Origin: Alphaproteobacteria bacterium
Lineage (GTDB): Bacteria; Pseudomonadota; Alphaproteobacteria; GCA-2731375
Assembly: GCA_030746635.1 (NCBI GenBank)
Contig: JASLMH010000025.1
Coordinates: 1-38,128 of the forward strand
Direction of reading: 5' to 3'
DNA length: 38,128 nucleotides
Notes under the pieces: generated by a model
Databases searched by the model: none
What the model saw: only the letters and a program-made list of their open reading frames with translations
Told to the model about the DNA's origin: nothing
Translations under genes and position numbers: made by a program
In this document: piece after piece, positions 14,310 through 33,071 of the stretch
How positions within the stretch are numbered: position 1 is the stretch's first letter
Layout: each line of letters opens with the position of its first letter

Positions 14310-14684
14310 ATGGCCCGCGTCACCGTCGAAGATTGCATCGTCAAGGTGCCCAACCGGTTCGACCTCGTCCTCATTGCGGCCAATCGGGCGCGCCAGATTT
14401 CCGCCGGCGAGGAGCCGACGGTACCGGAAGACCGCGACAAGAACCCGGTCATCGCGCTGCGCGAAATCGCCGACGAGACGATACCGCCCGAAGACCTGCG
14501 CGAAGGCGTGATCCGCGGCATGCAACGGCATGTGGAAGTCGACGAGCCCGAGGAAGACGACCTCGAGGCGCAGATGCTGAGCCACCAATTCGCCGACAAT
14601 ATCGAAGAAGGCGAGGAAGCGGCGTCCGCGGCCACCCCGGCGGACGATGCGAACGCGGCCGCCGAAGATTGGGATGAAGGCTAG
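14310..14684 (+). CDS. rpoZ: DNA-directed RNA polymerase omega subunit
   Basis: [58 protein letters not shown]; located immediately upstream of relA/spoT as usual. Confidence 0.97.
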
Positions 14685-14795
14685 GAGCCGCCGGGCAACA
14701 ATCAACGCCGCCAGACGGCAAGGCAGGGTTTCCGGCGTCGCCTTGGGGCGGCGCCGTTGCCGTTTCCGCGGCAGCCGCGCCCGGAGGGACGGGCG

Positions 14796-16961
14796 GTGAT
14801 CCGGCAATTCGAACTGGTTGAACGGGTCGCCGGCTATGACGAAAGGGCCGACGAGAACCTGCTGAACCGGGCCTACGTGTTCTCGATGAAGGCCCATGGC
14901 AGCCAGATGCGGGCCTCGGGCGACCCCTATTTCTCCCATCCCGTCGAGGTCGCCGGCATCCTCACCGACTACAAGCTGGATTGTGCCACCATCGTCACCG
15001 CCCTGCTGCATGACACGGTGGAAGACACCCTGGCGACGATCGATCAGATCGGCGAGCTGTTCGGCGAGGAAATCTCCCGCCTGGTGGACGGCGTGACCAA
15101 GCTGTCGAAGCTGGAAATGCGCTCCGAGGCCAGCGAGCAGGCCGAGAATTTCCGCAAACTGGTGCTGGCGATGTCAGACGACATCCGGGTGCTGCTGGTC
15201 AAGCTGGCGGATCGCCTGCACAACATGCGGACGTTGCATTTCCTGAAAAACGCCGAGAAACGCGCCCGCATCGCCGCCGAGACCATGGAAATCTACGCCC
15301 CCCTGGCCGAGCGCCTGGGCATGCAGCGGATCAAGCAGGAACTGGAGGATCTGGCCTTCCGGGAACTGAACCCGGAGGCGCGGGAATCGGTGATCCGCCG
15401 CGTCGCCTTCCTGCACGAGGACGGCGATGATCTGTCCCGCCGGATCGGCGAGGAATTGCACCGCATCATCGCCGAGGCCGGTATTCCCTCCCGCGTATCG
15501 GGCCGGGAAAAGACCCCCTATTCGATCTGGCACAAGATGGAACGGGAGGACATCTCGTTCGAGCAGCTCTCGGATACCCTGGCGTTCCGCATCGTCGTCG
15601 ACAGCGTGCCGGACTGCTATCAGGTGTTGGGTGCGGTGCACGGCACCTATCCGATGGTGCCGGGGCGCTTCAAGGACTACATCTCGACGCCGAAGCGCAA
15701 CAACTACCAATCCATCCATACCACCGTGATCGGGCCCGAGAACCGGCGCATCGAGGTGCAGATCAGGACCAAGATGATGCATCAGGTGGCCGAGATGGGG
15801 GTCGCCGCCCATTGGCAGTACAAACAGGATATGGACGCCACCGACGGCAGCCGTTACCGCTGGCTGCAGGAACTGGTGGAAATCCTGGAAAACGCCCAGA
15901 GCCCGCAGGAGTTCCTCGAACACACCAAGCTGGAGATGTTCCCCGAACGGGTGTTTTGTTTCACCCCCAGGGGCGGTGTGATCGCCCTGCCGCGCGGCGC
16001 CTCGGCGGTGGATTTCGCCTATGCCCTGCATACCGATATCGGCAACACCTGTGTCGGGGCCAAGGTCAACGGCCGCGTCGTGCCGCTGCGCACCGAATTG
16101 CGTAACGGCGATCAGGTGGAAGTGCTGCGGTCCAAGCAACCGGCGCCCGATGCCGGCTGGGAGACCTTTGTCGTCACCGGCAAGGCACGCTCGGCGATCC
16201 GCCGGTTCATTCGCGCTCAGCAGCGCCAGGAATATCGCAAGCTGGGCCGCGCCATCGCCGAAAAGGCCTTCCGCGAGACCGGCCACGAATTCAGCGATCA
16301 GGCGGTGGAGACCGTCTTGAAGATCCATGATGCCCGCTCGGCCGAGGATATCTACGTGCAATTGGGCCAGGGTCATCTGACCTCGCGGCAGTTGCTGGAT
16401 ACGGTTTTCCCGGGCGAGCGTCGCTGGCGCGCCCGTAACCCGTTCGGCGCCATCAACCGCATGATCCCGGCCCGCCTGCGGCTTGGCGCCGGCGACAAAT
16501 CAGATGGCCATTCGGTGCCGATCCGGGGCCTGCGGCCCGGCTTGGCGGTGCACTACGCCGATTGCTGCCACGCCTTGCCGGGCGATCGCATCGTCGGCAT
16601 CGTCCACAAGGGCAAGGGGGTCGACATCCACACCATCGATTGCGAGCGCCTGGCCGATCTACCCGAGGGCCGGGACGATTGGCTCGACGTGACCTGGGAC
16701 ATCGATCCGGACGCCCCCGGTGTCTACGTCGGCCAGATCAAGGCGGTGATGTCCAACGAGCCGGGCAGCCTGTCCAGTCTGTCCAGCGTGATCGCCAAGA
16801 GCATGGGCAACATCTCGAACCTGAAGATCACCGACCGCAGCGCCGATTTCTTCGAAATGCAGGTGGATATCGAGGTCACCGACCTGACCCATCTCAGCAA
16901 TATCATCGCCGCGCTACGGGCGACGCCGAGGATGAGTAAGGTGGAGCGGGTCAGAGGATGA
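14796..16961 (+). CDS. Bifunctional (p)ppGpp synthetase/hydrolase, RelA/SpoT (Rsh) family
   Basis: HD domain ([31 protein letters not shown]), synthetase ([23 protein letters not shown]), TGS, ACT domains. GTG start at 14796 is preceded by GGAGGGAC; the ORF track begins further upstream. Confidence 0.96.
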
Positions 16962-17545
16962 ATGACGACGACGTGTTGAACCACTTTCGGGCGGCCGGCG
17001 CGCTGCTGGAGGGCCACTTCATTCTCACTTCGGGCCTGCGCAGTCCGATGTACCTGCAATGCGCCCGGGTGCTGATGCATCCCCAGCGGGCCCAGGCGCT
17101 ATGCCGCGAACTGGCCGACCGGATCATCGCCGGCCTGGGCCCGGATGCCTTCGATCTGGTGGTCTCGCCGGCCATGGGCGGGGTCGTTGTCGGCTACGAA
17201 ATGGGCCGGCAACTTGGCCTGCCGGCGATCTTCACCGAGCGGGTCGACGGCGAATTCCTGTTGCGCCGCGGTTTCGAGATCGAGCCCGGCGCGCGGGTGC
17301 TGATGGCCGAGGACATCGTCACCACCGGCCTCTCCTCGCGCGAATGCATCGCCTGCATCGGCGGCCTGGGCGGCGAGGTCGTCGCCGCCTCCTGCCTGAT
17401 CGATCGGTCCGCCGGCAAGGCCGATGTCGGGGTGCCGCTGTATTCCCTGGTCGCCATGGAAGTGCCCGCCTATCCGGCCGACGAGTTGCCCCAGGATTTG
17501 GCGGCGCTGCCCGCCGTCAAGCCCGGCAGCCGCGGCCTGAAATAG
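16958..17545 (+). CDS. pyrE: Orotate phosphoribosyltransferase
   Basis: [34 protein letters not shown]...[43 protein letters not shown] overlap with the rsh gene. Confidence 0.96.
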
Positions 17546-17606
17546 CCGCGCGGCATTTGCGCTTGCGGGGGCGGTCATGGCACAACGGGGCAGGAGGTTG
17601 ACCGGC

Positions 17607-18362
17607 ATGAGAGAAAAACTGCGCCTGGGCGTCAACATCGACCACGTCGCCACCATCCGCAACGCCAGGGGCGGCGAACATCCGGATCCGATCCGGGCCG
17701 CCCGCATGGCGGCCGAGGCCGGCGCCGACGGCATCACCGCGCATCTGCGCGAGGATCGCCGCCATATCTCGGACGACGACATCAGCCGCCTGAGCGAGCA
17801 GATCAGGCTGCCGCTGAACCTGGAGATGGCGGCGACCGAGGAAATGCTGGCGATCGCCCTGCGCCACCGCCCGCACGCCGCCTGTATCGTGCCCGAGAAG
17901 CGCGAGGAATTGACCACCGAGGGCGGCTTGGACGCCCATGGCGGCGAGAACCACCTGCGCCGCTATGTCGACGAGTTGGTCCAGGCCGGCATCCGGGTCT
18001 CGCTGTTCATCGATGCCGACCCCCGGCAGTTGCAGGCGGCCAGGCGGCTCGGCGCGCCGGTGGTCGAATTGCACACCGGTCGCTATGCCGAGGCCGATGG
18101 CGCGAGCCGCGAGGCCGAACTGCTACGCCTGCAGGAGGGCGCGGCGGTGGCCGAGGCATTGGGCCTGGAATGCCATGCCGGCCATGGCCTGAGCTATGAC
18201 AATGTCGGGCCGGTGGCGGCGATCCCGACGGTGGTGGAGCTTAACATTGGCCATTTCCTGGTCGGCGAGGCGATCTTCGGCGGCCTGGATTCGTCCATCA
18301 AGCGCATGCGGGCGCTGATGGACAAGGCGCGGGCCGAGGCGACCGGCAGCCGCTCTGCCTAG
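17607..18362 (+). CDS. pdxJ: Pyridoxine 5'-phosphate synthase
   Basis: [54 protein letters not shown]...[26 protein letters not shown]. Confidence 0.97.
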
Positions 18363-18387
18363 CTGGCAGCCGGACCATCCCAGGAAC

Positions 18388-18813
18388 ATGATTATCGGCA
18401 TCGGCAACGACCTGATCGACATCCGTCGCATCGAACGCACGTTGGAACGTTTCGGCGAACGGTTCATCAGGCGCATCTTCACCGAGGTCGAGCGGGAAAA
18501 GGCGGAACGCCGGGCCACCCGGGTCGAAACCTATGCCAAGCGCTTCGCCGCCAAGGAAGCCTGTTCCAAGGCCCTGGGCACCGGTTTCCGGCGCGGGGTC
18601 TTTTGGCGCGACATGGGCGTGGTCAACCAAAAGGGCGGCCGGCCGACCATGCATTTGACCGGCGGCGCGTTGAAACGCTTGCAAGAACTGACGCCACCGG
18701 GCATGAAGGCGCAAATCGACCTGACCCTGACCGACGACCCCCCCCTGGGCCAGGCCATCGTCATCATATCCGCCGTGCCGGACGACCGACCCGACGCCGG
18801 CGAGGGAAACTGA
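18388..18813 (+). CDS. acpS: Holo-[acyl-carrier-protein] synthase
   Basis: [35 protein letters not shown]...[30 protein letters not shown]. Confidence 0.97.
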
Positions 18814-21485: not shown

Positions 21486-22463
21486 CTAGGCGGTAGCGAG
21501 GCCCTCGGCCAAGCGCTGGGCCAGCACGCCGGCCACCCGGCGGCGATAGTGCGGTGCCGTGGTGGTGGTCTTCATCGCCTTGGCCTTGGCGCGGACCAGT
21601 TCGCGAAGCTGCGCCGATGTCTCCTCGTCCAGCGGCCCGCCGATGAACTTCTCGGTGCCCGGAACCAGGAACGGCCAGGAGCCGACCCCGGTCAGGGCCA
21701 CGCGCAGATCGCCCAGGGCGCCGTCCTTGACGCTCAACCGCACCGCCGCGCCGGCCAGGGGAAAGTCGATCGAGCCGCGGACCCGCGACTTGGCATAGCC
21801 CGAGCGGACATCGGCGGGCAGCGCCGGCAGGTGGACGGCAACCAGGAGTTCGCCCGCTGCCAGGGTCAGGTGGTCGAGGCCGTCGTTGCGGTACATCTCG
21901 GCCAGGGGCAGGCGGCGGCGGCCGTCGGGGCCGGCCAGTTCGACCTCGGCGTCGAACAGCAGTAGGGCCGGCGCCAGGTCGCCGGAAAAGGCCGCGAAGC
22001 ATTTCTTGCCGCCGGGCGCGACGTGGCAAATCTCGCCCCGGTGCTTCAGGCAGTAGCTGTTGGTAGCCCGCCACCATTCGCTTTGGTTGTAGTAGATGCA
22101 GCGGGTGTCCAGGCAGAGGTTGCCGCCCAGGGTGCCGTATTCGCGATGGCTGGGGCCGGCGACCTCGCCGGCCGCCTCGGCCACCGCCGGGTAGTCGCGG
22201 CGGAGGATTTCGTTCTCGGCCAGTTGGCGCAGGGTCAGGGCGCCGCCCATGCTAATCCCGCCGTCGGATTCGGCGATCTCGTGCATCTCGCCGATGCCGT
22301 TCAGGTAGATCAGCGCCTCGGGCTGTTCGATGCCGCGCCTAACGTTGACGATCAAGTCGCTGCCGCCGGCCAGATAGCGGGCGGCGGCGGCTTCGGCGTG
22401 CAGGGCCACGGCTTCCTCGGCGGTGGCGGGGCGGTGCATCCGCATCTGGGGGAGCTGTTCCAT
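21486..22463 (-). CDS. 4-hydroxybenzoyl-CoA reductase-like FAD subunit (beta / HbaD-HcrB type) of the xanthine dehydrogenase family
   Basis: FAD motifs ARYLAGGSDL, GTLGGNLCLDTRC, and the insertion CLDTRCIYYNQSEWWRATNSYCLKHRGEICHVAPGGKKCFAAFSGDLAPALL that carries the extra Fe-S cluster cysteines in 4-HBCR beta subunits. Confidence 0.87.
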   Translation of the reverse strand: MEQLPQMRMHRPATAEEAVALHAEAAAARYLAGGSDLIVNVRRGIEQPEALIYLNGIGEMHEIAESDGGISMGGALTLRQLAENEILRRDYPAVAEAAGEVAGPSHREYGTLGGNLCLDTRCIYYNQSEWWRATNSYCLKHRGEICHVAPGGKKCFAAFSGDLAPALLLFDAEVELAGPDGRRRLPLAEMYRNDGLDHLTLAAGELLVAVHLPALPADVRSGYAKSRVRGSIDFPLAGAAVRLSVKDGALGDLRVALTGVGSWPFLVPGTEKFIGGPLDEETSAQLRELVRAKAKAMKTTTTAPHYRRRVAGVLAQRLAEGLATA

Positions 22464-24787
22464 CAGGCCACCTCCTTGCCGCCGGCGCGTTCGGCCAGGG
22501 CGGTTTTCTCCAACAGGTCCAGCAGCCGGTCGGGCGTCAATGGCAACTCCGTCGCCCGCACGCCGATGGCGTCGGCGACGGCGTTGGTCAGGGCCGGCAG
22601 GAAGCCGCTCAACGAGCCCTCGCCGGCTTCCTTGGCGCCGAACGGCCCGTGCGGATCGGCGGCCTCGACGATCTTCACCTCGATGGGCGGCGAGTCGACG
22701 ATCGTCGGCACCCGGTAATCCAGCATGTTGGCGTGCAGCAACAGCCCGTCGTGCAGGCGGGTTTCCTCCGTCATCGCCTGGCCCATGCCCATCCAGACCG
22801 AGCCCTGGACCTGGCCCTCGACGGACAGCGGGTTCAGCGCCTTGCCGCAATCGTGGGCCACCCAGACCTTTTCCACCGTGATCTCGGCGGTGTCCGGGTC
22901 GACCGCGACCTCGACCACCTGGGCGGCGTAGCTGAAGGCCATGGTGCCGCCGATCGCGGCGCCGCGGTATTTCCGGCCGCCCCAGGATTCGGGGATGGTG
23001 TCGAAGATGCCCTTGACGGTCAGCGTGCCTTCGCCGCCCAAGGCCTCCATCACCACCTCGTCGAAGCTCAGGCCCTGGTCCTGCTGGCCGCCGCGATAAA
23101 CCTCGCCCAGGCATTCCACGTCCTCGGGCGCGATCTCCAGCTTGCGGGCCGCCGCCTCGATGAGCTTGGCCTTCAGGTTCTGGGCCGCGTCGATCGAGGC
23201 ATTGCCGACCATGTAGGTGACCCGCGAGGAGTAGGAGCCGTTGTCCTTCGGTGTCAGCGCGCTGTCGGATGAGATCACCCGGATGCGTCCCATGTCGACG
23301 CCCAGGGTCTCGGCCACGCATTGGGCCATCACCGTGGACGAGCCCTGGCCGATCTCGGCGGCGCCGGTCAAAAGCGTGATCGAGGCGTCCCAATCGACCC
23401 GCAGGTGGATGGTGGCGTGCGGCTCGCCGGTCCAGTGCTTCGGCTTGGAAGCGCCGGAAATGTAGTGCGAGCAGGCCATGCCCAGGCCCCGATAGGGGCC
23501 CAGCTTGCCCTTGCGCTGCCGCCAGCCGCTGGCCTGTTCGACCCAGTCCAGGCATTCGTCCAGACCGTAGCTGTTCACCAGCAAATCGTTCTCGGTCATG
23601 GTCGGCGCCTGCAGCAGGTTGGCCCGGCGCACTTCGAACGGGTCCAGGCCCAGTTCGATGGCCATGTCGTCGATCAGGCTTTCGAAGGCGAAGCGGGTCT
23701 TCACCGTGCCGTGGCCGCGAAAGGCGCCGCAGGGCGGCGTGTTGGTCAGCACCCGATAGCCCTCGAACCGGGCCGAGGTGATGTCGTAGATGCCGTAGAT
23801 CATCGAGCCGGCGTACAGGATGGTGACGATGCCATAATCGCTGTAGGCGCCGCCGCGCTGCACCGCCTCGAAATCGACCGCCGTGATGGTGCCGTCCTTG
23901 CGCATGCCGACCTTCATCCGCAATTGGCTCTCGGGCCGGCCGCGGTGGGTGATGAAGGTCTCCTCGCGGCTCAGCACCACCTTGACGCTGCGCCCGGCCT
24001 TGCGGGCCAGCAGGGCGGCCGCCAGTTCGCTTTGCAGGGTTTCGGTGCGGGAACCGAAGCCGCCGCCGATATACGGCTTGACGACACGGACCTGCAATTT
24101 GTCGATGCCCAGGACGCGGGCCAGCATCAGGTGCACGTAGTAGGGGACCTGGGTGCTGGAGCGCATGGTCAGGCGCTCGCGGGCGGTGTCGTATTCGGCG
24201 AAGGCGGCGTGCGGCTCCATCTGCGCCTGGCAGACCTCGGCGCACTGGAAGGTCATCTCGCGGACCAGGTCCGCCTCGGCCATGCCGCCATCGACGTCGC
24301 CCAGGTCGAAATGCACATCGCGCTCGATGTTGCCGGGGCGCTCCTCGTGCAGGTCGATGGCGCCCTCGGCCCGGGCTTCCTCGGCCGTGAAGTAGGCCGG
24401 CAGTTCCTCGTACTCGACCTCGATCAGGGCCAGGGCCTGTTGCGCCGTCGCCTCGTCGACGGCCGCCACCGCCGCCACCGGCTCGCCGCGATAGCGCACC
24501 CGATAGCGGGCCAGGGCCCATTCGTTCATGGCGATCGGCAGCACGCCATGGGTATCGGCGCAGTCCTCGCCGGTGACCACCGCGAGCACACCGGCCAGGG
24601 CCTCGGCCCTGGCGGTATCGACGCTGACGATCTTGGCATGGGCCACGGGGCTGCGCAGGATGCGCCCGACCAGGGCGTCGGCGGCGCTGAAATCGGCCGC
24701 GTACATGGCCTTGCCGGTGACTTTCTCGGGGCCGTCGACGAACGGCTGCGGTAGGCCAATGGTTTGCACGGGCGAGATATCGTTCAT
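22463..24787 (-). CDS. 4-hydroxybenzoyl-CoA reductase-like molybdopterin (large/alpha) subunit
   Basis: 775-codon xanthine-oxidase-family Mo subunit: GLPQPFVDGPEKVTGKAMYAADF...YIGGGFGSRTETLQSELAAALLARKAGRSVKVVLSREETF...PCGAFRGHGTVKTRFAFESL...EIGQGSSTVMAQ...GPFGAKEAGEGSL. Start ATG 24787. Confidence 0.88.
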   Translation of the reverse strand: MNDISPVQTIGLPQPFVDGPEKVTGKAMYAADFSAADALVGRILRSPVAHAKIVSVDTARAEALAGVLAVVTGEDCADTHGVLPIAMNEWALARYRVRYRGEPVAAVAAVDEATAQQALALIEVEYEELPAYFTAEEARAEGAIDLHEERPGNIERDVHFDLGDVDGGMAEADLVREMTFQCAEVCQAQMEPHAAFAEYDTARERLTMRSSTQVPYYVHLMLARVLGIDKLQVRVVKPYIGGGFGSRTETLQSELAAALLARKAGRSVKVVLSREETFITHRGRPESQLRMKVGMRKDGTITAVDFEAVQRGGAYSDYGIVTILYAGSMIYGIYDITSARFEGYRVLTNTPPCGAFRGHGTVKTRFAFESLIDDMAIELGLDPFEVRRANLLQAPTMTENDLLVNSYGLDECLDWVEQASGWRQRKGKLGPYRGLGMACSHYISGASKPKHWTGEPHATIHLRVDWDASITLLTGAAEIGQGSSTVMAQCVAETLGVDMGRIRVISSDSALTPKDNGSYSSRVTYMVGNASIDAAQNLKAKLIEAAARKLEIAPEDVECLGEVYRGGQQDQGLSFDEVVMEALGGEGTLTVKGIFDTIPESWGGRKYRGAAIGGTMAFSYAAQVVEVAVDPDTAEITVEKVWVAHDCGKALNPLSVEGQVQGSVWMGMGQAMTEETRLHDGLLLHANMLDYRVPTIVDSPPIEVKIVEAADPHGPFGAKEAGEGSLSGFLPALTNAVADAIGVRATELPLTPDRLLDLLEKTALAERAGGKEVA

Positions 24788-25254
24788 GACGCCAACTCCC
24801 GGGCCGCCGCCTGGACCGCCTCGATGATCTTCACGTAGCCGGTGCAGCGGCAGATGTTGGCGGCCAGGGCGGAGCGGATGTCGGCCTCGCTCGGCGCCGG
24901 GTTCTGCCGCAAAAGGCCTTCCGCCGCCATCACCATGCCCGGCGTGCAGAAGCCGCATTGCGCGCCCAACTTCTCGTGAAAGCCGCGCTGGATCGCCGAC
25001 AGGCGACCGGCGTGGGCCAGGCTCTCGACGGTGTCGATCCGGGCCTCCTGGCAGGTCGCCGCCAGGGTCAGGCAGGCATGCCGTGGCCGGCCGTCGATCA
25101 GCACCGTGCAGGCGCCGCATTCGCCGCCGTCGCAGCCGACCTTGGTACCGGTAAGGCCGATCTTTTCCCGCAGGTAATCGACCAGCAGCATGTTGTCCGG
25201 CACGACGTCGTCGCGCGGCTGGCCGTTGACGGTGACCGAGAGGATGGTTTTCAC
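24784..25254 (-). CDS. 4-hydroxybenzoyl-CoA reductase-like [2Fe-2S] (small/gamma) subunit
   Basis: VKTILSVTVNGQPRDDVVPDNMLLVDYLREKIGLTGTKVGCDGGECGACTVLIDGRPRHACLTLA...GAQCGFCTPGMVMAAEGLL...CRCTGYVKIIEAV. GTG 25254 preferred over the ORF-track start, which overlaps the upstream palindrome. Confidence 0.9.
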   Translation of the reverse strand: MKTILSVTVNGQPRDDVVPDNMLLVDYLREKIGLTGTKVGCDGGECGACTVLIDGRPRHACLTLAATCQEARIDTVESLAHAGRLSAIQRGFHEKLGAQCGFCTPGMVMAAEGLLRQNPAPSEADIRSALAANICRCTGYVKIIEAVQAAARELAS

Positions 25255-26695: not shown

Positions 26696-27514
26696 TTATC
26701 CCCCAAACAGCGCGATCATGCGGGAGGGGGCGGCGTTGGCAACGCTAAGGCTGATAATGCCCAGGGATTCCTTGATCTGATTGGACTGCAGCGCGGCGCT
26801 TTCCGCGGCCATGTCGGCATCGACCAGGTTGCCGATACCGGCGCGCAAGGTGTCGTTCCGGGTCCCCAACAGATCGTTGTGGGTGTCTACTTGCTTGGCC
26901 GAACTGCCCAGGTTGGCCAGTTTGCCGGAGGCATCGGCGATCGCTGCATCCAGGGCGCCTAGCGCGCTGGCGGCGTTGCCCGCGCTATCCAGGGCGAGGC
27001 CGTCGAGACCCAGACCGCCGCTGGACAAATCCTGGGCGCTGACCGTGATGCGGGCGCCATCTTCGTCGCCCAGAACATCCTGATCGGCGGCACCGGCGGC
27101 GATGATATTGGTGCCGGCGAAATCGGCGCTGTCATTGATGGTGGTGATCTGTTCCCGCAGCGCGTCGAAGGCGGAATCCAAGGCGTCGCGGGAGGATTGA
27201 TCCAACCCCTCTTGATTGGCCTGAACCGCCAGGCCTTTCATCTCCACCAGGATGTCGGCGGTCGACTGGCCCGCGGCCAGGGCGACGTCGATGGTGGCGG
27301 AGGCCCGGTCCAGGCCGTCGCGTACGGCTTCCGTGCCGGAGAAGGCTGCCAGCAACCGCTCGGCGACGGCCAGGGTGGCGGCATCGTCCTTGGGCGAATT
27401 GACCTTGTTGCCGCTGGAAATGTGGGACTGGGTCTTGTCCAGGCCGTTGCGGGTGCCCGAAAATCGTTGCAAAGCGATCATCGCGCTGGTGTTGGTATTG
27501 ATGGAATTGATCAT
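26696..27514 (-). CDS. Flagellin (FliC-type) domain protein
   Basis: N-terminal MINSINTNTSAMIALQRFSGTRNGLDKTQSHISSGNKVNSPKDDAATLAVAERL and C-terminal ADMAAESAALQSNQIKESLGIISLSVANAAPSRMIALFGG match the conserved D0/D1 flagellin regions. Confidence 0.92.
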   Translation of the reverse strand: MINSINTNTSAMIALQRFSGTRNGLDKTQSHISSGNKVNSPKDDAATLAVAERLLAAFSGTEAVRDGLDRASATIDVALAAGQSTADILVEMKGLAVQANQEGLDQSSRDALDSAFDALREQITTINDSADFAGTNIIAAGAADQDVLGDEDGARITVSAQDLSSGGLGLDGLALDSAGNAASALGALDAAIADASGKLANLGSSAKQVDTHNDLLGTRNDTLRAGIGNLVDADMAAESAALQSNQIKESLGIISLSVANAAPSRMIALFGG

Positions 27515-27774: not shown

Positions 27775-28344
27775 TCAGAGCCGCACCACCTTGCCGTCCG
27801 GTTCGCCCTGGTCCAGTTCGTCGGCCATCTCGAAGCCCCGTCGCAGGGCCTCGAGGTTGAGGTCGAGGAAGGCTTTCGGCGTCCCTTCGCGGACCGCTTC
27901 CCCCACCGCCTGGCGGTCGCAGATGCCGCTCAGGCCGACCAGGGTGCCGAGCGCCACGACGTTGGCGGCGCGATGGCTGCCCAGCGCGATCGCCTCGTCG
28001 GTGAACGGCAGCTGGTGCAGGGTGATATCGCCCTCGGGCGGCTCCGGCACCAGTCGGGCATCGGTCAGCACCAGGGCGCCGGGGGCCATCATGGCCGCCG
28101 AGGGCGCGACGCCGATCTGGTCCAGGGCGATCAGATAGTCGATCGCCGTGACCAGGGGGTAGTCCACCTCGCGGTCGGCGACCACGAGATCGGAATTGCA
28201 GAAGCCGCCGCGCGAGGTCGGCTCGTAGCTTTGCGATTGCGCCGCCCGCTTGCCGTCCAGCACGACGGCCTGAAACAGCAACCGGCCGCTCAGGATCAGG
28301 CCCTGGCCGCCGCTGCCGGCGAAGCGGATTTCCAGCTTACTCAT
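27775..28344 (-). CDS. 2-oxoacid:acceptor oxidoreductase gamma subunit (KorC-like)
   Basis: MSKLEIRFAGSGGQGLILSGRLLFQAVVLDGKRAAQSQSYEPTSRGGFCNSDLVVADREVDYPLV; POR gamma domain with GSGGQG. Confidence 0.93.
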   Translation of the reverse strand: MSKLEIRFAGSGGQGLILSGRLLFQAVVLDGKRAAQSQSYEPTSRGGFCNSDLVVADREVDYPLVTAIDYLIALDQIGVAPSAAMMAPGALVLTDARLVPEPPEGDITLHQLPFTDEAIALGSHRAANVVALGTLVGLSGICDRQAVGEAVREGTPKAFLDLNLEALRRGFEMADELDQGEPDGKVVRL

Positions 28345-29189
28345 GCGCCGGCCTTGCCGCCGTTGGCGACGCCGTCGGCATGGCGGCGATAGGTCTCGCC
28401 GTATTCCGGCCGCTCGTTGCGCGCCAGCACGCCGGTTAGCAAACGGTTGGGCCGGAACGGCTGGTCGGCGACATTTCCATAGGCCTCGGGGCGCATGTCG
28501 CTCTTCTGGCTCAACACCATCTCGGCCGATTCACCCAGGTCGTTCTTGCGCCCGTAGATCTCGGTGCAGTCGGAGATCACCTCGAGGAAGGAAAAGCCGG
28601 GATATTCCAATCCCTGCTTGATCAGGTTCCGCAACGCCGGGGTCTGCATGGTGACCTCGCGCCCGACCAGCCCGGCGCCGGCCGCCTCGGCCAGTTGGCA
28701 GGCATCGAACGCCGGTTCCGTATTGCCGGCCGGGGTGGTCGTGGTCAGGCGGGTTTCCGCCGTGGTCGGCGAGACCTGGCCGCCGGTCATGCCGTAGACC
28801 TCGTTGTTGAGCATCAGGCAGGTCAGGTCCAGGTTGCGGCGGCAGGCATGGATCAGGTGATTGCCGCCGATCGCCAGGCAGTCGCCGTCGCCGGTGATGA
28901 CGATGACCTTCAGATCGGGCCGGGCCAGCTTCAGGCCGGTGGCGAAGGCCAGCGGCCGACCATGGGTGACGTGGTAGGTGTTGGCGTCGATATAGCCCCC
29001 GACCCGGCCCGAGCAGCCGATGCCCGAGACGATGGCCAGCTCGTCCTTCTCGATACCCAACTCGTGCACCGCCCACAACAGCGCCCGCAAGGCGATGCCG
29101 TGGCCGCAGCCCGGACACATGAAGTGCGGCATCAAATCCAGCCGCAGATAGTCGCGGATTTCGAAGCCGGCGGGATTTGTCTCAGTCAT
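28341..29189 (-). CDS. 2-oxoacid:ferredoxin oxidoreductase beta (TPP-binding) subunit (KorB-like)
   Basis: YLRLDLMPHFMCPGCGHGIALRALLWAV...GIGCSGRVGGYIDANTYHVTHGRPLAFATGLKLARPDLKVIVITGDGDCLAIGGNHLIHACRRNLDLTCLMLNNEVYGMTGGQVSPTT. Confidence 0.95.
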   Translation of the reverse strand: MTETNPAGFEIRDYLRLDLMPHFMCPGCGHGIALRALLWAVHELGIEKDELAIVSGIGCSGRVGGYIDANTYHVTHGRPLAFATGLKLARPDLKVIVITGDGDCLAIGGNHLIHACRRNLDLTCLMLNNEVYGMTGGQVSPTTAETRLTTTTPAGNTEPAFDACQLAEAAGAGLVGREVTMQTPALRNLIKQGLEYPGFSFLEVISDCTEIYGRKNDLGESAEMVLSQKSDMRPEAYGNVADQPFRPNRLLTGVLARNERPEYGETYRRHADGVANGGKAGA

Positions 29190-30321
29190 CGGCGGCCATC
29201 TCCTCGATCCGGCGGGCGATCTGGGAGGGCTCGATCGGTTGGCCGTCGACCCGGTTCAGCCCCGCCACCCTGACCTCGTCGCGGCAAATCCGTTCCACCT
29301 CCAACACCAGTTGCCCGGCGTTCATCTCCGGCACCAGCACCGATCGGGCCTGGTCGGCGGCCGTCCGCAAGGCCTGCTCGGGGAAGGGCCACAGGGTAAT
29401 CGGCCGGAACAGGCCGGCGGCGATGCCTCGTTCGCGGGCCTGGCGCACCGCCCGGCGGGCCGCCCGGGCGCTGATGCCGTAGGCAACCACCAGCACTTCG
29501 GCGTCCTTGGTGTCGTGGCATTCGAAGGCCTCGATGTCCTGGCCGTGTTGATCCAGCTTGCCCAGCAGGCGGTCCATGACCCGAGTCACGGTGTCGGGAT
29601 CCTGGGTCGGAAAGCCGTCCTCGGCATGGGTCAGGCCGGTGGTATGTGTGCGATGGCCGTCGCCCGGCCGGGTCATGGCGGGAATGCCGTCCGCGCCGGC
29701 GGCGTAGGGTTGATAGCCGTCGTCGCCGTTGGCCCAGCGGCGTTCGACCAGGTCCAGGCTGCCGGCCGCCGGCAGTTCGATCGGCTCCAGCAGATGGGCG
29801 ATCACCTGATCGAACAGCACCATCACCGGCACCCGGTAGCGTTCCGAGAGGTTGAAGGCGCGGATCGTCTGGTCATGGATCTCCTTGACCGAGGCCGGGG
29901 CCAGGGCGATCAGCGGGTGGTCGCCGTGGCTGCCCCAGCGCGCCTGCATGATGTCGGATTGGGCCGGTCGGGTCGGCATGCCGGTGGACGGGCCGCCGCG
30001 CATCACGTTGGCGATGACGCAGGGTATCTCGGCCATCGAGGCCAGGCCGATATTCTCCTGTTTCAGGGAAAACCCCGGGCCGGAGGTCGCGGTCATCGAT
30101 TTGACGCCGCCGGCCGAGGCGCCCAGCACCGCCGCCATCGAGGCGATCTCGTCCTCCATCTGCACGAAGGTGCCGCCGACCAGGGGCAGCTCGCGCGACA
30201 TCCGTTCGGCGATTTCCGACGACGGGGTGATCGGGTAGCCGGCGAAAAACCGGCAGCCGGCGGCGATCGCGCCCAGGGCGCAGGCATGGTTGCCGTGCAG
30301 GTTTGCCATTCCGGCGGTCAT
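29182..30321 (-). CDS. 2-oxoacid:acceptor oxidoreductase alpha subunit (KorA-like)
   Basis: MANLHGNHACALGAIAAGCRFFAGYPITPSSEIAERMSRELPLVGGTFVQMEDEIASMAAVLGASAGGVKSMTATSGPGFSLKQENIGLASMAEIPCVIANVMRGGPSTGMPT. Confidence 0.95.
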   Translation of the reverse strand: MTAGMANLHGNHACALGAIAAGCRFFAGYPITPSSEIAERMSRELPLVGGTFVQMEDEIASMAAVLGASAGGVKSMTATSGPGFSLKQENIGLASMAEIPCVIANVMRGGPSTGMPTRPAQSDIMQARWGSHGDHPLIALAPASVKEIHDQTIRAFNLSERYRVPVMVLFDQVIAHLLEPIELPAAGSLDLVERRWANGDDGYQPYAAGADGIPAMTRPGDGHRTHTTGLTHAEDGFPTQDPDTVTRVMDRLLGKLDQHGQDIEAFECHDTKDAEVLVVAYGISARAARRAVRQARERGIAAGLFRPITLWPFPEQALRTAADQARSVLVPEMNAGQLVLEVERICRDEVRVAGLNRVDGQPIEPSQIARRIEEMAADD

Positions 30322-31263
30322 CTAGGCGTTGGCCTCGGCGAGATTGTCGTGATGCACGGCGATGGCGAAATCCGGGCACAGCCATTCGCAAATCCGGCAG
30401 CCGGTGCAGGCGTCGGGGTCCTTCAGCCGCACGATCTGTTGCTCGTCCAGCTCCAGGCACCGCTCGGGGCACAATTTCACGCAGATGTCGCAGCTCTTGC
30501 ACCACTCGGCGGTGATCTCCAGCCGCACGTCGATGTCGGGCTGGATTGGTGGCGGTGCCAGTTCCGGCGCCAGGCCGGCCGGCCCCGCCGGGTCCTGGCG
30601 GGCTTTCTCGACCCAGTCCCGGCCCAGCAGGAAGGCCTGGCGGTTGATCTCCTCCGTCCCCTTGGGCACGAACTGGTTCAGCACCGACAGCCAGTCGTCG
30701 AGGGGGAAATCCAGGGTCGCCGACAGGGTGCCCAGCAGGATGGTGTTGCCGGCCCGGGCGTTGCCCAGTTCCTCGGCCATGCGGCCGGCGTCCAGGGCGA
30801 AGCCGTCGGAGACCCGGCCGATGATCTCGGCCGGCGTTTCGGTGGCATAGGCCATGTCGGCGCCGAACTGCCGATTGCGGCAGGCGAAGGGCGGGATCAC
30901 CTGCTGGGTATCGGCGATGAAGACGCCGCTTTCGGGTCGCAGGAACGGCAGCCAGCGCACCCCTTCGGCCCATTCCATGGCGATCAGTACGTCGGCCTCG
31001 CCCATCGGAATGGTCGGCGACCAGACCTGGGCGCCGTAGCGGACATGGCTGAAGACCACGCCGCCGCGCTTGGCCATGCCGTGGACCTCGCTCTGCTTGA
31101 CCTGCATGCCCTGGGTCTGACAGAGCAGCGCCAGCACCTTGGAAATCATGATCACGCCCTGGCCGCCGACGCCGACGATCAGGACGTTGCGGGTACGCGG
31201 ATCGGCGACGGCGCCCGGCTGTTGCCGTTCGCCGACTTCGGCGCTCGCTGTATCCGTGGTCAT
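30322..31263 (-). CDS. Indolepyruvate oxidoreductase beta-like (IorB/POR gamma) domain fused to a C-terminal 2x[4Fe-4S] KorD-like ferredoxin domain
   Basis: N-terminal VLIVGVGGQGVIMISKVLALLCQTQGMQVKQSEVHGMAKRGGVVFSHVRYG (IorB); C-terminal EWCKSCDICVKLCPERCLELDEQQIVRLKDPDACTGCRICEWLCPDFAIAVHHD (two CxxCxxCxxxCP motifs). Start ATG 31263. Confidence 0.92.
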   Translation of the reverse strand: MTTDTASAEVGERQQPGAVADPRTRNVLIVGVGGQGVIMISKVLALLCQTQGMQVKQSEVHGMAKRGGVVFSHVRYGAQVWSPTIPMGEADVLIAMEWAEGVRWLPFLRPESGVFIADTQQVIPPFACRNRQFGADMAYATETPAEIIGRVSDGFALDAGRMAEELGNARAGNTILLGTLSATLDFPLDDWLSVLNQFVPKGTEEINRQAFLLGRDWVEKARQDPAGPAGLAPELAPPPIQPDIDVRLEITAEWCKSCDICVKLCPERCLELDEQQIVRLKDPDACTGCRICEWLCPDFAIAVHHDNLAEANA

Positions 31264-33071
31264 TGTTCCACCGGCTGGATGCAATCGGAGGGGCAGACCT
31301 GGGCGCACAGGGTGCAGCCGATGCAGGCGACCTCGTCGATCTTGACCTTGTGGTGGCCGTCATACATCCCCTCCGACCAAGTGATGGCCGGGCAGCCCAG
31401 GTTCATGCAGGCCTGGCAGGCGACACAGCCGGCGGCCTGAACCGTCAGGGCCGGCCCCCTGATCTTCACCGGATCCAGGACACAGGGCCGGTCCGAGATC
31501 ACCACCGCGACGCCCTTGTACTGTGCTGCTTCCCGCATGGTCTGGTACAGCCCGCCCAGGTCGTAGGAATCCACCTTGCGGAGCCATTTGACGCCGACGG
31601 CCTGGCAGATCTGCTCGAAATCGACCTGATGCGCTTCCTCGCCGCGCAGGTTCCTGCCGGTGCCGGGATGGTCCTGGCCGCCGGTCATGGCGGTGATCTT
31701 GTTGTCCAGGATCAGCACGGTGATGTCGACGTTGGAGTAGACGGCGTCGATCAGGGGCGGAATGCCGGAATGCAGGAAAGTGGAATCGCCGATGGTCGCG
31801 ACGATCGGTTTGGTCTCCGTGCCCGCCTTGGCCATGCCGACCGCGTTGCCGATGCTGGCGCCCATGCAGACGTTGGTGTCGATCGAGCGCAGCGGTTCCA
31901 CCGCCGCCAGGGTGTAGCAGCCGATGTCGCCGGCGACCCGGGCATCCAGCGCCCGCAAGGCCATGTAGCCGCCGGTGTGGGGGCAGCCGGCGCACAGCAC
32001 CGGCGGCCGCATGATCGGCCTGACGTTCCATTCATGCGTCGCCGAGGGGGCTTCCGCCAGGCCGGCCTTGGCCAGTCCGGCGCGCACCACTTCGGGCGAG
32101 AATTCGCCGACCCGTGGGAAGAAGGCCTTGCCCTCGACCTTGATGCCCAGGGCCAGCACCGCGGCTTCGATGAACGGCTCCAATTCCTCGACCACCAGGA
32201 CCCGGTCGACGCTGTCGCAGAACTCCCGCACCGTCTTCTCCGCCAACGGGTACGAGGCGGCCAGTTTCAGCACGCTGGCCCCGGGCGCCACTTCCTTGAC
32301 GTAGGGGTAGGAGGTGCCGTTGGTGATGATGCCGAAGCTGCCGTCGCCCCGGTCCCAGCGGGTCAGCGGCGATTGCTCGAAGTAGGCCCGCAGCTTCTCC
32401 TCGCGCTCGATGACCAGGGGATGACGTGCCCGGGCGACCGCCGGCAGGGTGACGTTCTTATTCGGATCCTCGATGAACGGCTTGTCTTCCGGCACGGTCC
32501 TGGTGCCGATGACCACCGGGCTGCGGGTGTGCGACAGCCGCGTCGTGGCGCGCACGATCACTGCGGTATCGAACTCCTCGCTCAACTCGTAGGCCAGGCG
32601 GGTGAAGTCCAGCGCCTCCTGGGCGTCGGCTGGTTCCAGCACCGGGATGTTGGCGAGCCGGCAGAACAGCCGGGTGTCCTGTTCGTTCTGCGAGCTGTGG
32701 ATGCCCGGGTCGTCGCAGACCGCGATCACCAGGCCGCCGTTGACGCCGATATAGGTCTGCGACATCACAGAGTCGGCGGCGACGTTCAGGCCGACATGCT
32801 TCATCGCCGCAAGGGCGCGAACGCCTTGGAACGAGGCGCCGATGGCGACGTCGGTGGCGACCTTCTCGTTGGTCGACCATTCGGCGTTGATCTCGGCCGC
32901 GTCGTAGCCGGCCAGGCTCTCGAGGATTTCGGTGCTGGGCGTGCCCGGATAGGCCGAGGCCACCTTGACGCCGGCCTCCCAGGCGCCACGGGCGATCGCC
33001 TCGTTGCCCGTCAGCGGACGGGCCCGGACTTCCGTTCGTTCGTCGGCCTGCGCCGCTTCCGGCCTGCTCAT
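31260..33071 (-). CDS. iorA: Indolepyruvate ferredoxin oxidoreductase alpha subunit (IorA-like)
   Basis: LTGNEAIARGAWEAGVKVASAYPGTPSTEILESLA...RPPVLCAGCPHTGGYMALRAL...GDIGCYTL...MTGGQDHPGTG...C-terminal ferredoxin CVACQACMNLGCPAI...CIGCTLCAQVCPSDCI. Start ATG 33071. Confidence 0.94.
   Translation of the reverse strand: MSRPEAAQADERTEVRARPLTGNEAIARGAWEAGVKVASAYPGTPSTEILESLAGYDAAEINAEWSTNEKVATDVAIGASFQGVRALAAMKHVGLNVAADSVMSQTYIGVNGGLVIAVCDDPGIHSSQNEQDTRLFCRLANIPVLEPADAQEALDFTRLAYELSEEFDTAVIVRATTRLSHTRSPVVIGTRTVPEDKPFIEDPNKNVTLPAVARARHPLVIEREEKLRAYFEQSPLTRWDRGDGSFGIITNGTSYPYVKEVAPGASVLKLAASYPLAEKTVREFCDSVDRVLVVEELEPFIEAAVLALGIKVEGKAFFPRVGEFSPEVVRAGLAKAGLAEAPSATHEWNVRPIMRPPVLCAGCPHTGGYMALRALDARVAGDIGCYTLAAVEPLRSIDTNVCMGASIGNAVGMAKAGTETKPIVATIGDSTFLHSGIPPLIDAVYSNVDITVLILDNKITAMTGGQDHPGTGRNLRGEEAHQVDFEQICQAVGVKWLRKVDSYDLGGLYQTMREAAQYKGVAVVISDRPCVLDPVKIRGPALTVQAAGCVACQACMNLGCPAITWSEGMYDGHHKVKIDEVACIGCTLCAQVCPSDCIQPVEQ

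Follow-up and report, generated by a model that had tools for sequence, protein, structure and literature searches.

The window analysed here is a stretch of 38,128 nt from an alphaproteobacterium (GenBank assembly GCA_030746635.1, contig JASLMH010000025.1) and corresponds to contig C177 of a 5.08 Mb draft genome (G000) that is 83% complete. At positions 27775–33071 its minus strand carries five contiguous genes for subunits of 2-oxoacid:ferredoxin oxidoreductases (KORs), for which the simplest reading of the sequence is the order iorA–[iorB::oorD]–oorA–oorB–oorC. The five reading frames are open and intact, and the four junctions, taken 5′ to 3′ in the operon, consist of a 4-nt overlap, direct abutment (0 nt), an 8-nt overlap and a 4-nt overlap. 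Coordinates, frames and junctions were re-derived here and agree with those given in a previous, sequence-only reading of the window. The overlaps suggest that the genes are cotranscribed; a promoter scan at the operon returned nothing above chance. Judged from its genes, the operon is a fusion linking an indolepyruvate (arylpyruvate):ferredoxin oxidoreductase (IOR) with a four-subunit 2-oxoacid oxidoreductase resembling 2-oxoglutarate:acceptor oxidoreductase (OOR).

The alpha subunit encoded by iorA (31260..33071, 603 aa) comprises POR_N, a thiamine pyrophosphate (TPP) domain and a C-terminal 2[4Fe-4S] domain, as defined by Pfam; it passes the NCBIfam model TIGR03336 (IOR_alpha; 694.5 bits, cut-off 650.9) with its TPP and cluster motifs intact. 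The iorB::oorD fusion (30322..31263, 313 aa) consists of an IOR beta domain with the POR gamma fold (about residues 26–222, 30598..31188; PF01558, E 2e-32), a variable linker and a 2[4Fe-4S] domain of the OorD/KorD type (about residues 246–304, 30352..30528). The top NCBIfam families for its IorB part are all IOR beta, yet the score of 183.9 bits lies below the cut-off of 237. OorA (KorA; 29182..30321, 379 aa), which matches PDB 1yd7 and 8ys5_A, passes the general alpha-subunit model NF006412 of NCBIfam (566 bits, cut-off 411). It is followed by the TPP-binding beta subunit OorB (KorB; 28341..29189, 282 aa), which resembles Helicobacter pylori OorB most closely (8ys5_C, 245 bits), and by the gamma subunit OorC (KorC; 27775..28344, 189 aa; PF01558, E 2.9e-28), whose best model is PRK08537, a 2-oxoacid:ferredoxin oxidoreductase gamma subunit. 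The Oor-specific NCBIfam cut-offs are missed by all four components (OorA 421.9/579, OorB 289.8/364, OorC 62.2/216, OorD 46.4/93). In alignments of up to 73 homologues the cluster-ligand cysteines are invariant or nearly so, namely C360, C363, C385, C530 and the C-terminal cysteines of IorA, C255 to C296 of the fused domain and C25, C28, C59 and C208 of KorB; both enzymes therefore look functional.

The identity of the ferredoxin domain on IorB is central to the interpretation. Used alone as a query, the domain finds OorD as its best NCBIfam model (E 1.5e-13), and OorD also ranks first for the domain of the most divergent member tested, from Acidimicrobiia (L113). A sequence search of the whole PDB returned 8ys5_D, the OorD subunit of H. 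pylori OorDABC, as best match (E 1.8e-8). Within the same genome the closest relative is a stand-alone OorD on contig C77 (37% identity, E 4e-16), which opens an unfused oorDABC operon; weaker matches are the KOR delta subunit on C13 (1e-9), the ferredoxin encoded with the benzoyl-CoA reductase genes (1e-6) and the ferredoxin domain of IorA (5e-5). A duplication of the IorA domain was considered and rejected, as the fused domain is closer to the C77 OorD (4e-16 versus 5e-5). A separate oorD is missing from the window operon, in which the fused domain directly precedes oorA, filling the D position of the D-A-B-C order as in the C77 paralogue. The sequence-only reading had recognized a ferredoxin domain on IorB, and the domain itself stands; as an extra ferredoxin of the IOR it does not, for it is most probably the fourth (delta) subunit of the KOR, OorD. 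The linker between the two parts varies in sequence and length among loci, and an AlphaFold2 model of the fusion displays two confident domains with a less confident linker between them. Foldseek searches with this model retrieved gamma subunits, OorC-type subunits and small ferredoxin subunits, together with the gamma–delta chain of Moorella oxalate oxidoreductase. The fusion also lends support to the previous suggestion that IOR and KOR may be physically joined.

A single scan of 84,980 species genomes with two peptides of the fusion (IAMEWAE and WCKSCDI), which was not exhaustive and could catch unfused relatives retaining the first peptide, gave 73 loci. The fusion is in frame at 72 of them, and the gene order is the same at all 72, with five complete genes at 59 and contig ends cutting the other 13. 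The order, whose conservation in relatives the sequence-only reading had left as a question, is thus conserved far beyond chance and far outside the genus. The loci come from Alpha-, Beta- and Gammaproteobacteria, SAR324 and Acidobacteria, and from single metagenome-assembled genomes (MAGs) that carry the labels Actinomycetes, Chloroflexi, Acidimicrobiia and Armatimonadetes; closest among the relatives with the operon are MAGs deposited as Rhodospirillaceae or Alphaproteobacteria. Among 399 sampled genomes of the phylum, the window's own included, the operon was present in three, and OorA homologues of >50% identity were confined to carriers, the next best reaching 46%. Within the window's family its distribution is patchy, with 5 of 15 genomes carrying it. 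The two halves have one common history: their Mantel r is 0.966, the highest of 999 permutations being 0.293, and their trees share 29 supported splits, while four supported IOR splits conflict. A plasmid search for the fusion yielded no match spanning its full length.

The operon is strongly linked to aromatic degradation. Class I benzoyl-CoA reductase (BCR), scored as BcrB over cut-off, occurs in 34 of the 54 carrier genomes examined but in only 2 of the 398 genomes sampled from the phylum (window's own excluded; Fisher p 1e-34, a value inflated by shared ancestry, since lineages are not independent), and the enrichment is spread over three proteobacterial classes. 4-Hydroxybenzoyl-CoA reductase (HCR) is over cut-off in 17 of the 54, every one of them BCR-positive. 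The most frequent neighbour is a PaaK-type phenylacetate-CoA ligase, found upstream, downstream or divergent at 21 loci, and others are a branched-chain amino-acid-type (liv) ABC transporter (about 20 loci), PadB (8–10) and Lrp (5). Superclusters within about 30–55 kb unite korAB-bcrCBAD-ferredoxin, paaK, padBC(D), the liv transporter and ior/oor (G065:C83, G084:C4 and G092:C29; in G105:C33 no liv genes were seen). Co-occurrence with bcr, as anticipated by the sequence-only reading, is thus borne out by both counts and superclusters containing bcr, padBCD and paaK. The PadB assignment is supported because a 64% identical homologue sits in a complete padBCDEFGHI operon whose PadI is over the curated cut-off. 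PadB was also tried as a gene that might track the operon within the window's family and does not; bcr, hcr and padB occur there with or without it. Members of one small-protein family lie ahead of iorA at several loci and ahead of padB in a classical pad operon (L111:6060–6464, L146:8311–8724, L104:4243–4770, L180:14075–14428); as a guess, the protein is possibly a thioesterase for phenylglyoxylyl-CoA. In Ideonella sp. A 288 (L093:38–2451) about 4 kb separate the fused operon from genes reading as nifH and nifD, a hint that this host may use the reduced ferredoxin to fix nitrogen.

With moderate confidence, we propose that the operon encodes a two-headed 2-oxoacid:ferredoxin oxidoreductase, in which an arylpyruvate-oxidizing IOR half is tethered to a 2-oxoglutarate-oxidizing OOR half. 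The IOR half, formed by IorA and the N-terminal part of the fusion, would oxidatively decarboxylate an arylpyruvate, most likely phenylpyruvate derived from phenylalanine, to the arylacetyl-CoA (phenylacetyl-CoA). The OOR half, made up of OorA, OorB, OorC and the C-terminal OorD domain, would oxidize a second 2-oxoacid; the likeliest reaction is that of 2-oxoglutarate to succinyl-CoA. Because the ferredoxin subunit of the OOR is carried on IorB, the two enzymes would be held in a fixed ratio and tethered, and both active sites could load electrons onto neighbouring 2[4Fe-4S] domains, which would in turn charge soluble ferredoxin. In ring-reducing hosts these electrons may serve benzoyl-CoA and 4-hydroxybenzoyl-CoA reductase, alongside the bcr-linked KorAB and not in its place; in other hosts they would go to other sinks. 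Most plausibly, ring-reducing bacteria use the conserved linked pair to metabolize phenylalanine and phenylacetate anaerobically, and the pair has a wider use elsewhere. Three observations weigh against this proposal. The IorB part, OorB, OorC and the OorD domain all score below their curated equivalog cut-offs, so that the substrate cannot be read from family membership. A gamma–delta fusion exists within a single enzyme, the oxalate oxidoreductase of Moorella, and by that precedent the domain could serve the IOR alone. Finally, the ring reducer has its own KorAB, which makes a second KOR look redundant.

As for the second substrate, KorB keeps the motifs GIGC[SA]GR and YGMTGGQ, whereas a motif comparison showed that beta subunits of the PadI type have YMNTG and lack a basic residue behind the cluster cysteine. 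A basic residue following GIGC[SA]G matters for 2-oxoglutarate in Sulfolobus enzymes. By these motifs KorB is of the OOR type and not of the PadI type, which favours 2-oxoglutarate. Alternatively, the OOR half may be the phenylglyoxylate:ferredoxin oxidoreductase of hosts devoid of padEFGHI. In that case a single carbon skeleton would be processed successively by IOR, PadBCD and OOR, from phenylpyruvate through phenylacetyl-CoA and phenylglyoxylate to benzoyl-CoA. Consistent with this, in L082, L092 and L111 the operon stands beside padB, padC and paaK, at the classical place of padEFGHI, and PadI over cut-off is missing in 20 of the 30 carriers that have both BCR and PadB, including G105/G293, a genome listed as 100% complete. 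For Desulfococcus, the phenylglyoxylate step is described as unclear (PMC5109826). However, the window subunits fall far short of the Pad models (PadG 70.2/700, PadI 26.7/700) and KorB bears OOR motifs; moreover, ten carriers also encode PadI over cut-off and some have no PadB. Within the window's family PadI is absent from carriers and non-carriers alike, and operon-free members with PadB also lack it, so that another enzyme can fill the PadI gap. We thus regard a phenylglyoxylate-oxidizing OOR half as possible, though unlikely.

The sequence-only reading had also raised the possibility that the operon is dedicated to reducing ferredoxin for benzoyl-CoA or 4-hydroxybenzoyl-CoA reductase. The enrichment of BCR among carriers and the restriction of HCR to BCR-positive ones speak for such a role, as does an Rrf2 and GNAT pair, resembling the pairs beside bcr, that precedes the operon at eight betaproteobacterial loci. 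In Rhodopseudomonas palustris the bad genes are under BadM/BadL control (PMC6191541). However, bcr already comes with an adjacent KorAB and ferredoxin. KorAB next to bcr is reported, as cited in PMC9973337, to feed BCR in Thauera, and according to the same paper AadN replaces KorAB in some R. palustris strains. In the window's own genome, contig C258 (L047:2747–11966) carries bcrC, bcrB, bcrA and bcrD, all four over cut-off, with a YfhL-type ferredoxin; divergent from these genes are a two-subunit KorAB, a rubrerythrin-like gene, a GNAT and an Rrf2 gene, the latter two being BadL/BadM-like. In this genome the window operon lies apart from bcr, unlike a dedicated, KorAB-type KOR of BCR. Moreover, bcr is found in operon-free relatives, one of which (G006) has a bcr–KorAB cluster like that of C258, and the operon is found in genomes in which no BcrB was detected, namely those of Rhodopseudomonas (R. 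palustris) JSC-3b, R. faecalis, R. rhenobacensis, Afifella, Thermopetrobacter and Ideonella; in such isolates it mostly adjoins paaK. Since bcr has its own KOR and ferredoxin, and since bcr and the operon occur apart, the operon is not simply the donor of BCR, and a role as its dedicated electron source, as previously suggested, appears quite improbable.

It could further be argued that the two halves are independent enzymes sharing only a transcript, with the fused ferredoxin domain serving the IOR alone. The fusion of an IorB-type gamma and a ferredoxin delta domain within oxalate oxidoreductase is in line with this idea. However, IorA already bears a 2[4Fe-4S] domain of its own, the OOR half would be left without a delta subunit, and both the sequence and the position of the fused domain point to OorD, which renders this explanation very doubtful. 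It is highly improbable, lastly, that the operon encodes a redox-neutral machine in which electrons from one TPP site drive reductive carboxylation at the other through the shared 2[4Fe-4S] domains, with net conversion of arylpyruvate and succinyl-CoA to or from arylacetyl-CoA and 2-oxoglutarate; if true, this would in one direction regenerate the 2-oxoglutarate that transaminates phenylalanine and in the other yield arylpyruvates from aryl acids that the adjacent PaaK has activated.

About 2.5 kb downstream of the operon, on the same strand, lies hcrCAB (21486..25254), encoding 4-hydroxybenzoyl-CoA reductase. It exceeds the cut-offs of TIGR03194 (1183 bits, cut-off 994.6) and TIGR03195 (421.6, cut-off 404.6) and scores 256.7 against TIGR03193 (cut-off 257.8). 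The 4-hydroxybenzoyl-CoA reductase-like enzyme noted in the sequence-only reading is therefore genuine, but its proximity is not kept: in the four nearest operon-bearing relatives hcr is on a different contig from the operon, and true hcr is also present in operon-free relatives. Adjacency to hcr as the key to function was accordingly rejected. A short flagellin-like gene (26699–27514, minus strand) stands alone between hcr and the operon. The host genome has an unusual load of 2-oxoacid oxidoreductases, with 16 POR-gamma domains, several of them in single-chain IOR-family proteins of 1150–1210 aa; its PF01558 matches include those on contigs C130, C172, C206, C210, C247, C280, C292 and C301. 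Contig C71 (L132:2894–7136) encodes a second pair of subunits of the 2-hydroxyacyl-CoA dehydratase/BCR type, below the cut-off of the BcrB model, along with two activase genes. Contig C77, which bears the unfused oorDABC, also has a BcrB-like gene standing alone and encodes a molybdopterin enzyme together with its Fe-S and membrane subunits (L133:6759–8063 and 14534–18590).

Both enzyme families are already known, but none of the papers searched describes a fusion that connects an arylpyruvate oxidoreductase with a 2-oxoacid oxidoreductase of four subunits, or the combined operon; the one paper in which all the terms occur treats kor and ior as separate enzymes of peptide fermentation. The operon is a marker block present in several phyla. 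It is a candidate part of the system by which anaerobic degraders of aromatic compounds share out the provision of low-potential electrons between several 2-oxoacid oxidoreductases, and a candidate for the enzyme oxidizing phenylglyoxylate where padEFGHI is missing.

Among characterized systems, the OOR half is most like OorDABC of Campylobacterota, a 2-oxoglutarate:acceptor oxidoreductase (PDB 8ys5/8ys6) that provides the best PDB match for both the window's ferredoxin domain and OorB. Its D, A, B and C modules are all present in that order, with a ferredoxin domain at D; in the window, however, D is fused to the C terminus of IorB, iorA precedes, and the scores are below the Oor equivalog cut-offs. 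The IOR half resembles IorAB of Pyrococcus, Aromatoleum and Desulfococcus in that IorA passes TIGR03336 and the matches of the IorB domain are to models of IOR beta. The IOR half differs from these enzymes by the additional OorD-type domain and by its probable cotranscription with a second oxidoreductase. In Aromatoleum an IOR for phenylpyruvate has been described (PMC9765128), and in Desulfococcus the formation of IOR is specific to phenylpyruvate (PMC5109826). KorAB of Thauera aromatica and its counterpart on C258 are likewise 2-oxoacid:ferredoxin oxidoreductases of anaerobic aromatic degraders, but they have two subunits (a gamma–alpha fusion and beta), lack an IOR, lie beside bcr and are encoded by different genes. 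PadEFGHI, the phenylglyoxylate oxidoreductase, is also a 2-oxoacid oxidoreductase with a ferredoxin subunit and belongs to the phenylacetate pathway; in contrast to the window OOR, which is far below the Pad models, it has POR-type beta motifs and an FAD subunit, and no IOR. Finally, oxalate oxidoreductase of Moorella thermoacetica (5c4i) combines in a single chain a gamma fold and, behind it, a ferredoxin delta domain, as does the window fusion; there the two domains belong to one enzyme, whereas here they would, judging by sequence, belong to two.

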